Shown piece by piece: positions 36,597 through 60,495 of a stretch of DNA of 64,000 bases (positions are counted from its first letter, which is position 1; each line of letters opens with the position of its first letter). Below the pieces are notes generated by a model that was given only the letters and a program-made list of their open reading frames with translations, was not told where the DNA came from and searched no databases. The stretch is from positions 868,001 through 932,000 of the forward strand of contig NZ_CP024963.1 of assembly GCF_002803985.1 (NCBI RefSeq). Reading direction: 5' to 3'. The position numbers and the translations under genes were made by a program. The DNA is from Williamsoniiplasma luminosum (GTDB taxonomy: Bacteria > Bacillota_I > Bacilli_A > Mycoplasmatales > Mycoplasmataceae).

Positions 36597-36845
36597 TTTT
36601 TTTCCTATCTATTTTTCAAAGTTTATTTGTATAATTCTCACTCTCTAACAAAAATATTTCCACTATAAGTTTCACAAAAAAAAAAAAAAAATCAATTGTA
36701 TTCCCAAATAAGAAGTTATTTGTCTAGAAAACTCGAGTGAAGCACAAAATATAAAAAATAAAATTACAAATTTTTACAAAAGTTTGTGGTTTTGATTGAT
36801 TAAAAATGATAAATAATCACAGCTCAAGATTTTTATTTTTAAGAT
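36597..36845 (-). promoter_or_regulatory. fruA upstream region with a 15-base homopolymer
   Basis: Gene-free. It holds 15 consecutive A on the plus strand (36676-36690), that is T15 upstream of fruA, about 80-95 bases before the start. TATACA-like sequence lies near 36630 and TTATAGT near 36665. I cannot decide which is the promoter. Confidence 0.4.
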
Positions 36846-50507: not shown

Positions 50508-50629
50508 ATTTTCTCCTTAAGAATATAAATCTCAAATTTTATTTTACATTATGCGAATATTATTATCAATTTAAAAATGTTATATAATAATTTATGTGTT
50601 GAAAAACAGTGAAAGGACTTATTTTATTT

Positions 50630-51538
50630 ATGGATCATTTAGCAGAATTTCTTTTTAGTCTCATTGCCTCAATTGCTTTGATCTCCTCATTATTTATTTT
50701 TCATAAGTTTTGAGCCAAAACCGCTAAAACTTATTGAGTGAGAATTATCGTGGGTTCATGATTACTAATTGGGGAAATTTGATTTCTTGTCACTAAAGAT
50801 ATTTTTGTCTTTAAATTCGCTGACGGAACACTAAATCCGATGTTTATGTATTGAGAGTTGTGTGCGATTTTAACTGTCACAGCGATCATTTTGATGGTTG
50901 TCCCATCAAAATTAAATTTAGATTTATTTCTTCCTTTTGCGATTTTAGCCCCAATTATTGTGATTGTGGTTCCAACTGCTGATACAAAAAGTTGAGGCTT
51001 TGACAACTTTAGATATTGAAATTACTACTTTGGACACTTAGGACTAATGTTTGCTTATTTATATACTTATTTATTCGGTTATACTAAAGCCAAATTGAGT
51101 TGACAAAGCATCAGAAGATCAGCCGCATTCGCGATTTTCTTAGCTACATTCTTAATGGTTTGAAACATGGCATATTCACCAAACAATCCGCTTGAACCAG
51201 TTCCAGCTGGTGAAGATTTAAATAAATGATGAGGTCCAAATTACCTATACAAATTCTTAATGTATTACTTAGGAATGGGTCGATTCAGTTTATTAAACCA
51301 ATACTTTTTAATGATTTTTGTTTTAATGCCATTGATCTTAACTTTGTGTTGAACTATGTTATATTTCTTAAGACCAATGTATGCAAATTGTGGAACCCAA
51401 AGATTAAAATTTGATATTCATGAAAACATCTTAGGTTTTAGAACAATTTTTACAAAAGCCAATTTTAAACAAACGTCAAAATCATTGCTTAATAAAATTA
51501 CAACTTCAGGCAAAAAACCACCTCTTGATAAAAATTAA
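50630..51538 (+). CDS. YwaF-like integral membrane protein
   Basis: The protein has 302 residues with many UGA-Trp codons. About seven hydrophobic segments are seen, beginning MDHLAEFLFSLIASIALISS. YYFGHLGLMFAYLYTYLFGY and NYLYKFLMYYLGMG resemble the YwaF/TMEM164-type family of Firmicutes and Mollicutes. The role of that family is unclear to me. The C-terminal 50 residues are soluble and basic (KSLLNKITTSGKKPPLDKN). A TATAAT at about 50583 may be the promoter. Stand-alone gene with terminator. Confidence 0.78.
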
Positions 51539-51566
51539 TTTAAGTTACTTATAAAAAATAAATCCA

Positions 51567-51601
51567 ATAATCACACTTTAAAAAATAGTGTGATTTTTTT
51601 G
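51567..51601 (+). terminator. Terminator after the YwaF-like gene
   Basis: AATCACACT pairs with AGTGTGATT around an A-rich loop, then TTTTTTT. Confidence 0.88.
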
Positions 51602-51835
51602 AGCTCGATTATTAAAAGATATTTGCTATATTTTATCTATGAAACAGATTAGCGATATAACTCTTAAATTGAACAGGACATTGATCATCTTAAATATGCC
51701 AAAAATGATCAAGTGCAAGGTTTTACGGCCTTATATTGAATTTAACTTTTTTTGAACTTTTTAAATAAAAACATGTTTTTTAATGGTTTTTAGGTAGTTA
51801 TAGCAATATTTATTCACTTTTTCGATTTTTAATGT
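51602..51835 (+). other. Intergenic region with a possible gene remnant
   Basis: No intact gene. Between about 51640 and 51745 there is a short ATG frame (MKQISDIT...) whose next codons make better protein sequence one frame over (EQDIDHLKYAKNDQVQGFTA, then a stop). This may be a frameshifted remnant of a small gene, but it is too short to judge. Confidence 0.25.
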
Positions 51836-51865
51836 TTGCAAATAAAAAAAAAAAAAAAATATAAT
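51836..51865 (+). promoter_or_regulatory. Lipoprotein promoter with a 16-A tract in the spacer
   Basis: TTGCAA (51836-51841) and TATAAT (51860-51865) are separated by 18 bases, of which 16 (51844-51859) are one A run. Gain or loss of A would change the -35/-10 spacing. This is the arrangement known for phase-variable Vlp lipoproteins of Mycoplasma hyorhinis. The transcript would start near 51872, giving a leader of about 135 bases. Confidence 0.75.
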
Positions 51866-52008
51866 AACTATGATTTGCGGACATTTAAATCAAAATATCA
51901 TTAAATCTTTTCAAATAAATCCTCCGAAAGTTTTTATTTAATTGAAGAATTTGATTGAGATGTGCAAATAAAAAACATTATGAAATAAAAGGAGTTCAAA
52001 AAGAAAGA

Positions 52009-53400
52009 ATGAAAAAATTATTAACATTATTAGGAAGTGTTGGAATGGTTGCTGCAACAGCTGCAACAGTTGTTGCATGTAACCCTGGCAAAAATGATGC
52101 TAAAGTATCTGATTCAACAATAAAAGTTGGTAAACATGGTGAAATCAACCTTACCAGAGATGAAATTAAAGAAGTTGAAGGATACAATGATGTAAAAGCC
52201 TATGAAGAAGGTTTTGTTCCAGCACCAGCTACAAAAGCGGATGCAGAAAAACCAAAACCAGTTTTAGATAAAGTAAAACTTGAAAACGGAGTAATTAGTT
52301 TTACAGGTTTAAAAGAAGGTAAAGCTACAATCGTATTACAAGGGACAAAAAAAGCACCAGTAACACCAGGAACTAAAACTGATGCGGCAGCTCCAAAACT
52401 TGAATTGTTGAAGACAAAATTCACAGTTATTGTTGAACCAAGTAGACAACCAGTAAAATCTATTAAAGAAGTGATCAAAACTCTTGCTTTAGGTGAAATC
52501 GCTGATGTTAAACCAGAAACTATTTTAGCAACAATTAATAAAGTAAATGCTGGTGCAAATCTTCTAGCTACAGATATTAAAATTGAAGTAGGAACAGATA
52601 ACAAATCAGCAAAAATTATTGGTCAAGGTATATTTAACGGAGATGTTACAGTAACTTTTACAGTTAAAACACCAACTGAAGATAAAAGAACAGATATTGG
52701 AACTCTTGTCAAAACATTAGGGAAATTAGAAGTAGATACTACTAAAGATGCAGTTATTGATGCATTTATTGCTAAAAACCCAAATGCAAAATTAGTTAAA
52801 GATGAATTACAAATTAAAGATGAATTAGCTGCAGATGCAACTACAGCTAAAATTGAAGTTAAATCAACTTCAACAACTCACAAAGGTTTTGTAGATGTAA
52901 ATTTTGAAAAAAAACCAGTTGAAGGTTCTAAAACAGATATTGGAACTCTTGTCAAAGTATTAGGGAAATTAGAAGTAGATACTACTAAAGATGCAGTTAT
53001 TGAAGCATTTATTGCTAAAAACCCAAATGCAAAATTAGTTAAAGCTGAATTACAAATTAAAGATGAATTAGCTGCAGATGCAACTACAGCTAAAATTGAA
53101 GTTAAATCTTCAACAACTCACACTGGGGTTGCTGATGTAACTTTTGAAAAAAAACCAGTTGAAGGTTCTAAAACAGATATTGGAACTCTTGTCAAAACAT
53201 TAGGGAAATTAGAAGTAGATACTACTAAAGATGCAGTTATTGATGCATTTATTGCTAAAAACCCAAATGCAAAATTAGTTAAAGATGAATTACAAATTAA
53301 AGATGAATTAGCTGCAGATGCAACTACAGCTAAAATTGAAGTTAAATCTTCAACAACTCACACTGGGTTTGCTGATGTAACTTTTGAAAAAAAAGCATAA
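52009..53400 (+). CDS. Surface lipoprotein with three tandem spiralin-like repeats
   Basis: The protein has 463 residues from the ATG at 52009. The signal MKKLLTLLGSVGMVAATAAT ends in the lipobox VVACN (Cys about 24). Residues about 35-140 resemble a bacterial Ig-like module (ISFTGLKEGKATIVLQGTKK, KLTKFTVIVE-like end). A spacer domain follows (about 150-225). Then three near-identical units of 80-81 residues begin TDIGTLVKTLGKLEVDTTKD and include IAKNPNAKLVKDELQIKDEL. The repeat pattern recalls spiralin of Spiroplasma. GGAG stands 14 bases upstream, rather far; an upstream in-frame ATG (51961 region) lacks a signal peptide and is less likely. Confidence 0.88.
   Translation: MKKLLTLLGSVGMVAATAATVVACNPGKNDAKVSDSTIKVGKHGEINLTRDEIKEVEGYNDVKAYEEGFVPAPATKADAEKPKPVLDKVKLENGVISFTGLKEGKATIVLQGTKKAPVTPGTKTDAAAPKLELLKTKFTVIVEPSRQPVKSIKEVIKTLALGEIADVKPETILATINKVNAGANLLATDIKIEVGTDNKSAKIIGQGIFNGDVTVTFTVKTPTEDKRTDIGTLVKTLGKLEVDTTKDAVIDAFIAKNPNAKLVKDELQIKDELAADATTAKIEVKSTSTTHKGFVDVNFEKKPVEGSKTDIGTLVKVLGKLEVDTTKDAVIEAFIAKNPNAKLVKAELQIKDELAADATTAKIEVKSSTTHTGVADVTFEKKPVEGSKTDIGTLVKTLGKLEVDTTKDAVIDAFIAKNPNAKLVKDELQIKDELAADATTAKIEVKSSTTHTGFADVTFEKKA
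52690..53400 (+). repeat. Three tandem 240-243 bp repeats in the lipoprotein gene
   Basis: Units start at 52690, 52933 and 53173. They are nearly identical at the DNA level (for example Asp/Glu and Asp/Ala differences at two codons, and an extra TCA-ACT pair in the first unit). The near identity implies recent expansion and makes unit gain or loss by recombination likely. Confidence 0.95.
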
Positions 53401-53439
53401 AATAAATACAAAAAACATATTGAAAAATAGTATAAAACT

Positions 53440-53472
53440 TAAAAATCACACTTTTTATAAGTGTGATTTTTA
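53440..53472 (+). terminator. Terminator after the lipoprotein gene
   Basis: AAAATCACACTT pairs with AAGTGTGATTTT around TTTAT, followed by a T-rich tail. Confidence 0.88.
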
Positions 53473-53689
53473 TTTGTCTGTGGGGCTTAAATAAGTTATT
53501 AATTTACAAATGTATCATTTTAATCATATATTTAATCAATTTCCTATAATCTATAATTACAAATTAGAATATCTCTTTGGCATATTGTTGAATTAGTGTG
53601 TTTTTCTATTCAACACCAAATCTTCAATCTTACAAACATATTTAATTATTAAACAAGATCAATAATCATTTTAATCATTGATGCTCAGA

Positions 53690-57079: not shown

Positions 57080-59290
57080 TTACAATTCGATATCAATATC
57101 GATATCACCATAATTGAAAATTGAAATTATGTTTTCAAAATTTAATTCTTCAAAATTTATTAATGAATTCTCTGCAATCTCTTTTAAATGCACCATAATT
57201 CCATACTCAACAGAAGGAATCCCATGATTAAGTAGATCCATTCTTTCAACAACAAAAGAAAAAGACTCTTTACTCTTTAATGAAATTGGGTTATTTTCAC
57301 TAAAATTCTTATCAAAAACAACTGTATTCGGATTATATTTTCCAAAATATTCCTTTAAAGCCTTTTCGTCAGCATCAACGCTATCTTTTTTTGATATTGG
57401 ACTTAATATATTACTTCGTGAGGACCCATTCTTTTGAGCTAACCTAAAACTTATATCTAAAGGAGAATATTCATCTCCGATTTCTATTTCATTAGGAATG
57501 TTGTAACAAACAGAATACGAAGCTGAAAATTCTGTTTTATTTGAACTATTAATAGGAAGATTTACATCGATTTCATATTTGCCTTTTGTATCAATAAAAC
57601 CTTCTATAAAAATAAAAATATCATTTTCACCTTTTAATATTTCAAGATCTGGAATACCATGTGAATTTGATTTCGATAAATAATTGATCACCGCTCTCGC
57701 ACTTTGGGGAGAAATTTTAAAATTTTCAATTAAATATGCAACTTTTCTAGTTACCAATGGCGTTGAAAATGAAGTTCCATTTTCAATCTTTAAGTTCTCA
57801 GATAAACCAGGTAATGAATGAACAATTGGTCCACCCCAATATGGATTACCCCTATTGTTTCCGAATTCATAACAATTCGGTTTTTGATACATTCCAAATA
57901 TTTTTCCAGATCCAGACCTTTCTCATTCTAGAACTTTTCCAGTTGTTCTTGATTTATATAAACTCCCCACAGATATAGATGTTAAAGAATCTGCTGGAGC
58001 ACTTAAATTTCTATTTTCTGAATTACCAGCAGATGTTACAATTTGAACTCCAAATTCAAATTGTAATTTATCTATCAATTTTCCAAAAGGAGTTATTATT
58101 AGTTCGTTATAACTTTTCTCAGAACCTAAAGAAATGTTTCAAATTTTAATTTCATGATAATTTTCTGAAATAATTTTATGTATTTTACGCATTAACATGG
58201 ATGTTAAAATTCTTCCCTTTGGTAAAACATTAAAAGATCTAACTCTAAATATCCCTAATCCATCTTTTTCTTCGTTTATAAAATCATTTAATGAAATTAT
58301 TGACGCAACTTGTGTTCCGTGATCCAAATCTTCGTTTTGATGGATTTCCAACATATCATATTGGCTTTCAATAAATTTTTGTTCTCATCATTCATCAATA
58401 TATTTAACTCGAGAATCTATAAGACCGATCACGGTTTTATTAATATCTTCATTTTTTATAATGGGCAATTCCACTTTGCTGCTTTGAATGAATTCTTGAA
58501 CATCTAAATCAATTTCAATATCATTCATAGTTTGTGAAAAAATAAATGGATATTTTGTAACAATTTGATTGACTTTTTCAATATCGATATTTCAAAACTC
58601 TGAAGCAATTAAAGATTCTTCACTTATATCGATTCCATTATCTAAAAGTAAATCAATAATTTTATTGAAATTATTGATTTTAAGATCTAGGAATGAAAAA
58701 ATTGGTGTTTTTTCAAATGGTTCTATTAAATTTATTTTTAATTCAAGTATATTCACAAAATCGTCTAACAACTTTTTATGCATAGTTTTTAATGAACTGT
58801 ATTTAAGAGTTATTAGTTCTTTTATTTTTTGGTTTTTTTCTTCAGCTTTTTGATTAGAATTGGTTATTTCAGTAACTTCCTTTTGAAAAATGGGATTTTT
58901 CAATATGAAATCTTCAACCTCGCACATATTGTCGATTGTTTTATCCAAATCAGAAATAGATAAAGAGTAAATTACATCTATGCGTTCTAACTTATTATTA
59001 CGATTGAAAATATATTTAGACCCTATTTGATTCGGTCCAGAAAACTCATGATTTACTAAAATCGCTTGAATCCTAAATGTTTTAGGGACAACCCTTTTAT
59101 ACGAAACCGTCACAGGAAATTCTGCAAACTCTTGGAAATCTAAAAAATACTTTTTAATATTTTTTAATGATTCTATTGAATCATTTATGGTTTTTTTCAT
59201 ATCATAGTTTCATTTTTCAAATGAAAATTTTCTTCCCGTAAACTTATTAAGTTTGGTTTTAGGTTGACTATATATAATAATTTTGGACAT
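57080..59290 (-). CDS. ietS: Subtilisin-like serine protease, IetS-type
   Basis: The protein has 736 residues. Residues 1-290 are a family-specific N-terminal region without signal peptide. The S8 catalytic domain follows: VIGLIDSRVKYID (Asp) near 310, DLDHGTQVASIIS (His) near 345, VTSAGNSENRN (oxyanion Asn), ENGTSFSTPLVTRKVA (Ser) near 505. The C-terminal 200 residues are a beta-rich accessory domain. No signal peptide and no propeptide, so it works in the cytoplasm. Its ATG overlaps the stop of the AAA ATPase by one base. The pair matches the IetAS anti-phage and plasmid-incompatibility systems. Several UGA-Trp codons. Confidence 0.85.
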
Positions 59291-60300
59291 TATTTAACTT
59301 TAGCCTTTCTTTGAAGTGTTGATTTAGAAACCCCCATTGCATTTTCTAAATCCCGGTAAGTAATATCAAATCCAATAAGATCAGTGGTGTCCAATTGCAA
59401 AATTTCAATTAAAGATTTTACTAAACTTTGATTATGAATTAAACTCTTAGTTACAACCTCATCAACAATTGCATAACTTATTTTATCCAAACTATTTTTT
59501 AATATTTTATACAATACTTTTTCATCGATTTTTAATTCAAATTCAGCAACTTTATGTAAAAACATGCTCATCATTTTATCAATATCAATATCGTTTTTTT
59601 TGATTCTTACATTAAATCTTCTAACTGTAGATTCGTCAATCAGGTCGTCTCTATTTGAAATTGCAAATAAAATGGAACCGTTTGGCAAATCATCCAATGA
59701 CTTATTAAAATTTCCTATCATTCTGTGATATTCATTGTTCATATCTAAATCTCTAGACCCTATTATAGAATCAAATTCATCGATTAAAATTATTGAATTA
59801 TCATAGACACTTCTAATTTCCTCAAAGACTAAATCAATATTTTTTTGTGTTTCTCCTAATTTATAAGATATTAATTTTGATGCATTTATTGAATAAAGTT
59901 GTCTACCAGATGCTTTGCAAATACTTTTTACAAATGTTGTTTTACCCGTTCCTGGTCTTCCTGTTATTAAGATTTTCAATCCTTTCATCTTATAAATAAT
60001 TTTTTCATTGCTAATTAAATTTAAAATTTTTTCTTCTTCATGATCTAGTTCCATCATATCTTCTATATGATTCTCTAACTTTAAAATTTTTATTGGCTGC
60101 ATGTTTTTAAATTGAGAAGAAGTCTTTGAACTAGTATTTCTATTCCCCATCATATCAAGAAGGATTTTTGACTCATTATTTAAATTGCTTTCAACAAACA
60201 ACTGGTGTATTTTTTTTAAAATCTGCAACGATTCTGTATTTTCTACTTGATTTGAAATAAATTCAGCAATTTTTAATAATTCTTTATCTGCAATATTCAT
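59290..60300 (-). CDS. ietA: AAA ATPase, IetA-type
   Basis: The protein has 336 residues. The first 100 residues are helical. The ATPase core shows Walker A ITGRPGTGKTTFVKS near 113, Walker B SIILIDEFDSIIGSRD near 173, sensor LFAISNRDDLIDES and the arginine pair TVRRFNVRI. The last 20 residues (TYRDLENAMGVSKSTLQRK) look like a helix-turn-helix tail. It is translationally coupled to the protease, with which it forms the IetAS defence pair. GGAGG precedes the start at 60300. It could also bind the iterons upstream; this is inferred. Confidence 0.85.
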   Translation of the reverse strand: MNIADKELLKIAEFISNQVENTESLQILKKIHQLFVESNLNNESKILLDMMGNRNTSSKTSSQFKNMQPIKILKLENHIEDMMELDHEEEKILNLISNEKIIYKMKGLKILITGRPGTGKTTFVKSICKASGRQLYSINASKLISYKLGETQKNIDLVFEEIRSVYDNSIILIDEFDSIIGSRDLDMNNEYHRMIGNFNKSLDDLPNGSILFAISNRDDLIDESTVRRFNVRIKKNDIDIDKMMSMFLHKVAEFELKIDEKVLYKILKNSLDKISYAIVDEVVTKSLIHNQSLVKSLIEILQLDTTDLIGFDITYRDLENAMGVSKSTLQRKAKVK

Positions 60301-60329
60301 TCAAATAACCTCCATAATTCTTTATCCTT

Positions 60330-60363: not shown

Positions 60364-60436
60364 TTTGGGACAAAATTAATATTTTTGGGACAAAGATATT
60401 ATTTTTTGGGACAAAGATAATATTTTTTGGGACAAA
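60364..60436. repeat. Four iterons upstream of ietA
   Basis: TTTGGGACAAA occurs at 60364, 60384, 60405 and 60426, with spacings of 20, 21 and 21 bases, about two helical turns. Each is a near-palindrome (TTTG-N3-CAAA). All lie on one face of the helix just upstream of the ietA promoter, as operator or activator sites would. Confidence 0.9.
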
Positions 60437-60495
60437 AACAATATTTTTAACACATCCTTTTTCAAAGGATAAAGCTTTAAGAATAAATTTTAGAT

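Follow-up and report, generated by a model that had tools for sequence, protein, structure and literature searches.

A run of sixteen A's lies in front of a surface lipoprotein gene of Williamsoniiplasma luminosum, and we consider it likely that this A16 tract is a slippage-prone promoter spacer acting as a stochastic switch of the gene. The tract was found in a 64,000-nt stretch of the chromosome (the window), where it nearly fills the 18 nt between TTGCAA and TATAAT at 51836-51865; on this point a sequence-only reading of the same DNA was exact, as can be read directly from the letters. What that reading overlooked is that A16 is one of 13 such tracts in the genome, several of which stand before genes other than surface antigens. 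The layout recurs across the family, and this family-wide pattern of a shared putative switch element with a set point for its length is a more interesting and newer result than the single locus.

According to the proposed mechanism, A16 would separate the -35 and -10 boxes of a sigma-70-type promoter that drives the lipoprotein gene. Replication slippage (slipped-strand mispairing) would add or remove single A's, so that the -35/-10 distance would move from 18 to 17 or 19 and transcription would be raised or lowered reversibly. Separately, in-frame recombination among three near-identical 240-bp repeats of the gene could alter the size of the protein. From the observed anatomy of the site, the non-random tract and the recurrent layout we infer slippage in populations, an effect of length on expression and the transcription start. 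The reading is probably right as to the mechanism and putative as to the effect on expression.

The A16 tract is genuine, and chance does not account for it. In the window, the number of A/T runs falls off steadily over lengths 1-8, followed only by two runs of 16, while Markov models of the window predict, depending on their order, 173-562 runs of at least 9 and 0.2-4.3 runs of at least 15. The whole genome (1.03 Mb, genus Williamsoniiplasma) contains exactly 13 A/T runs of at least 12 (two of 15, eight of 16 and three of 17), with none of 12-14 anywhere and at most 11 of 9-11; counted with overlaps, A12 has 66 matches and A9 has 116. The flanks of the other long run of the window read TTGA-T16-GTGAAACTTATAGT, which suggests that it may be a sister switch of the lipoprotein tract. 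A search of a plasmid collection gave no match.

In a consensus scan of 51530-53520, the TTGCAA-18-TATAAT site agreed with the consensus at 10 of 12 positions and ranked at the top of three promoter-like sites. Shuffled versions of the same region yielded on average 10.2 such sites, more than the real sequence, and the consensus match alone is thus weak evidence. The sigma-70 layout with a homopolymeric spacer (TTG and TANNNT flanks, 15-19 nt apart) is present at the locus. As a terminator-like repeat follows the upstream gene, the lipoprotein gene probably needs a promoter of its own, for which the A16 site is the best candidate by consensus. Two features of the locus count against a switch: the leader of about 135 nt exceeds that of most other A-class loci, and another promoter-like stretch, weaker and noticed by eye, lies closer to the gene. 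An Rfam search of 51500-53600 gave no match. Attenuation or termination as the main function of the locus was ruled out, with no hairpin abutting the tract. We also noted an imperfect 28-nt direct repeat (79%; 51837-51864 and 51963-51990), the core of which, TGCAAATAAAAAA, recurs beside the ribosome-binding site; the copy at 51963-51990 is possibly a second, weaker promoter or the remnant of a duplication.

Table 1. Features of the lipoprotein locus, the second long run of the window and genes behind the tracts of the genome.
Feature	Position in window	Strand	Basis or remark
-35-like hexamer TTGCAA	51836..51841	+	sequence reading, consensus scan
Spacer, 18 nt: AT + A16 (A16 at 51844-51859), putatively slippage-prone tract	51842..51859	+	
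-10 hexamer TATAAT, abutting the A16 tract	51860..51865	+	
Predicted leader, no Rfam match	51866..52008	+	deduced; start about 6-7 nt past the -10 by analogy with M. florum (excerpt of PMC7745072)
Likely ribosome-binding site AGGAG, within the leader	51990-51994	+	
Lipoprotein gene, 463 aa, ATG at 52009	52009..53400	+	Vmc-like/plasma lipoprotein signal peptide
Three in-frame repeats of 243, 240 and 225 nt (81, 80 and 75 aa)	52690..53397	+	
Probable terminator (inverted repeat, then a T run) of the gene upstream (50594-51538)	51566..51598	+	deduced
Terminator-like hairpin 3' of the lipoprotein gene	53440..53472	.	scored on both strands
Second A16 run of the window (T16 on the - strand)	36676..36691	-	79 nt before a PTS EIIA/EIIB gene
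L059, A16 lipoprotein locus	51836-51865		
L051, lipoprotein-like gene			seven Spiralin domains
L057, lipoprotein-like gene			tract 335 nt away
L060, lipoprotein-like gene			no lipobox cysteine
L061, lipoprotein-like gene			DUF285 repeats
L056, C5 DNA methyltransferase			tract 35 nt before start
L053, RpiR-type regulator			
L058 and L062, PTS sugar-transport genes			
L063, GH1 glycosidase			
L054, 169-aa protein			no family assigned

The claim that the downstream gene codes for a lipoprotein with tandem repeats was borne out by NCBIfam signal-peptide matches (LP_plasma, 37.0 bits against a cut-off of 24; XXplasma_LP, 30.8 against 19.3) and by three in-frame repeat units beginning at residues 228, 309 and 389. 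A tandem-repeat scan returned 2.9 copies of 240 bp with 95% match at 52689-53394. Over the first two thirds, repeat 2 departs from bases that repeats 1 and 3 have in common, and towards the end repeats 2 and 3 match, a pattern that looks like the result of recombination between units. All Pfam matches of the lipoprotein fell under the cut-off and were judged to be chance, and no Vlp family was among its Pfam and NCBIfam matches. A sequence pattern derived from the protein retrieved 82 matching stretches, none of them a relative. Its single-sequence fold has a mean pLDDT of 45.5, and the beta-alpha-alpha-beta-beta-beta fold modelled for the repeat is of low confidence.

Lipoprotein or lipoprotein-like genes lie behind seven of the 13 tracts (L051, L052, L055, L057, L059, L060 and L061). 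At 12 of the 13, no ATG-started open reading frame of at least 100 aa crosses the run, and the L062 tract is spanned by a 104-aa antisense frame. Most of the tracts are placed where a one-base slip would be expected to raise or lower a gene. Of 19 lipoprotein-like genes examined in the genome, five carry a tract at most 170 nt upstream and 13 have no run above 9, the L057 tract being further up; because these 13 go without, the tracts mark particular genes and not lipoproteins generally. They are scattered over the chromosome, and L051 and L052 form the sole near-identical promoter pair, to which the A16 lipoprotein does not belong.

A/T run lengths are strongly bimodal in the 60 family genomes, as if each had a genome-specific set point. 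Runs of at least 14 number 1,054 and occur in 52 of the 60, eight genomes having none. Runs with a length of exactly 11 are far fewer, 17 in total, and come from 10 of the 60. The mean tract length per genome lies at 15-18 in 48 of the 52 genomes, the exceptions being G033 (14.9), G050 (14.5, two tracts), G037 (19.8) and G053 (20.8). When genomes were sampled more widely from the order, such runs turned up in 87 of 119; 31 of the 119 belong to the family, and outside it the figure is 59 of 88. G003, of the same genus, has no run of at least 14, and tracts can therefore be missing from a whole lineage. At matching loci in relatives the tracts are mostly 16 long as well, so that length variation across species is small, which counts against a switch. 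The papers that literature searches on homopolymeric phase variation in Mesoplasma, Spiroplasma and Entomoplasma and on mycoplasma repeat lengths brought up do not, by title and abstract, describe the family-wide pattern; the Vmm (2002) and Vmc (2006) papers may hold more.

For a test of the layout, tracts were oriented by their downstream gene and only the flanks were scored, for a TTG in the 6 nt before the run and a -10-like hexamer starting 0-8 nt after it, with the mirrored side as control. In the discovery set (10 genomes, 64 tracts, 50 oriented), TTG was found at 29 tracts vs. 5 in the control and a -10-like hexamer at 40 vs. 9, with G as the next base in 38. A fresh set of six genomes (92 tracts, 85 oriented) gave 40 vs. 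7 and 53 vs. 25, respectively. G009, G011 and G026 follow the rule clearly, and support for it is weak in G012 (-10-like 4/13 vs. 6/13 in the control), G047 and G053 (TTG 1/10). Pooling of the 135 tracts of all 16 genomes results in 69 vs. 12 for TTG and 93 vs. 34 for the -10-like hexamer, with Fisher p values of 1e-14 and 7e-13 that are optimistic because related loci were pooled. Among random stretches nearby, 10% contain TTG and 41% a -10-like hexamer, and for the latter reason the -10 test is informative mainly against its control. The implied spacer has a mode of 15 and falls at 15-18 in 29 of 43 measurable cases of the main group. The A16 locus itself, with its spacer of 18, was scored as a miss in the strict TTG test, since its TTG starts 8 nt ahead of the run and the test covered 6 nt; this too counts against a switch. 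The promoter-spacer reading is well supported by the comparison, as the same order of TTG, homopolymer and -10 recurs family-wide, including genomes from outside the discovery of the rule.

On the coding strand, 111 of the 135 oriented tracts are T runs and 24 are A runs. Among T-class tracts of the discovery set, TTG is present at 21 of 36 and a -10-like hexamer at 30 of 36. The 40 nt upstream of T-class tracts fold better than shuffles (mean z -2.20; 55/111 below -1.5). A hairpin stands directly before the T run at L054, L076, L079, L084, L113, L199 and other T-form loci. As T-form runs often follow a hairpin, their sequences suggest that the terminator of the upstream gene and the promoter of the downstream gene may share the run.

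C5 DNA methyltransferase genes have a tract before the start in seven genomes including that of W. luminosum (L056, L071, L096, L106, L110, L117 and L118). It is an A run in W. luminosum, G001, W. lucivorax, G004 and M. grammopterae and a T run in G007 and M. seiffertii, and because A and T versions precede one gene type, selection would seem to act on the run as such. In a set of 27 methyltransferase loci, a run of at least 14 lies within 130 nt upstream in three (W. lucivorax, M. seiffertii and M. grammopterae), and M. lactucae and more distant loci have no run of that length within 130 nt (two of the 27 loci are shorter there). The arrangement possibly represents a promoter-switched phasevarion. 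Textbook phase-variable DNA methyltransferases usually have the tract within the coding frame. L056 resembles these systems in carrying a tract close to a methyltransferase gene and differs from them in having it in the promoter region.

The strongest caution comes from M. florum, whose mapped promoters have a strong TAWAAT -10 and, as far as the excerpt of PMC7745072 goes, no clear -35 box, so that the length of the spacer may be less important than supposed. The corresponding alternative, which we think unlikely, is that the tract slips around an equilibrium of about 16 in a promoter driven by the -10 alone, where length has a small effect, the length pattern is mutational and the promoter context mostly reflects tolerance. 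Per-genome means at 15-18 and the few runs of 11 fit it, as a mutational attractor without selection could suffice for both. Such a promoter would have no need of the TTG that is enriched at the tract edge over the mirrored side, and S. melliferum promoters do show TTGACA (excerpt of PMC5138195). Given the TTG enrichment, the flanks suggest that tract promoters may be a special class dependent on the TTG of the -35.

The tight hold of lengths near 16 across species would also suit a fixed structural element, a rigid or curved A-tract or a contact like that of an upstream element, which sets promoter strength and does not switch. This is decidedly improbable: a bent-DNA or contact element needs no perfect uninterrupted run and is not expected to function equally as poly(T), and 13 of the 19 lipoprotein-like genes lack a run above 9 in the 170 nt upstream. 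That the long T runs are simply the U-tracts of intrinsic terminators and resemble promoters at their flanks by accident draws on the folding upstream of T-class tracts, and seems hardly credible in view of the TTG and -10-like hexamers that these tracts carry in the discovery set; at the A16 locus, which is A-class and has no abutting hairpin, it does not apply. Homopolymers are error-prone in sequencing and the W. luminosum genome is a single consensus, yet an artefact of sequencing or assembly is very improbable as the source of a run length for which the same bimodal pattern appears in 52 of 60 family genomes.

A slippage-prone promoter spacer has a precedent in the Vlp system, to which the sequence-only reading had likened the locus. 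Vlp repeat units are short, far below the roughly 80 aa of the repeats in the A16 lipoprotein. In M. hyorhinis, ON/OFF switching of Vlp goes with insertions and deletions in a promoter poly(A) tract (PMC10502178, in excerpt). The two systems share a homopolymeric A tract in a surface-lipoprotein promoter and a repeat region able to give size variants (same excerpt), and the A16 locus likewise has a lipoprotein signal peptide with Cys and three in-frame tandem units in the 3' part of the gene. The likeness therefore holds for mechanism (promoter poly(A), lipoprotein, repeats) and fails for membership: the A16 lipoprotein is a single gene with no clustered vlp family of near-identical promoters and N-termini, the 13 tracts are scattered and also precede non-lipoprotein genes, and M. 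hyorhinis is a distant lineage. For the A16 locus, Vlp is best used as an analogy.

In the Spiroplasma-group lineage, which is nearer, M. mycoides Vmm is a lipoprotein switched through promoter repeat length, by dinucleotide changes (PMC2628566, in excerpt). The A16 locus differs in its one-base unit, and its spacer is AT + A16 and not (TA)n, no (TA)9 being present in the genome. The signal peptide of the A16 lipoprotein scores as similar to that of Vmc, the M. capricolum system, and homopolymeric or dinucleotide repeats have been reported upstream of certain lipoprotein genes of that species and of M. mycoides (PMC2996958, in excerpt).

Most discussion of phase variation concerns pathogens of animals that face immune pressure. 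W. luminosum shows the same promoter-spacer layout in a mollicute associated with insects, many members of the family are insect- or plant-dwelling, and the genes behind the tracts include those for metabolism and a methyltransferase in addition to those for surface antigens. We tentatively propose, with somewhat more doubt than belief, that the Entomoplasma/Mesoplasma/Spiroplasma group possesses a lineage-wide contingency system of A/T-run promoter spacers, with a set point of about 15-18 nt and a slippage attractor that empties lengths of about 9-13. It would switch lipoproteins, a DNA methyltransferase (a promoter-controlled phasevarion), sugar transporters, a glycosidase and a regulator; its poly(T) runs would double as U-tracts of upstream terminators, and A16 would be one unit of it. 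Since run lengths jump sharply from 8 to 15-17, the tracts can be counted in a genome sequence alone, and they offer a clean natural system in which to ask how slippage determines the length of a repeat.

Elsewhere in the window, on the - strand at 57080-60315, a gene for a 736-aa subtilisin-type protease-like protein adjoins one for a 341-aa AAA ATPase-like protein, both recognized by eye, and the pair is possibly a two-gene system. Four copies of a 21-bp repeat lie at 60364-60448, just upstream (- strand) of the ATPase gene.
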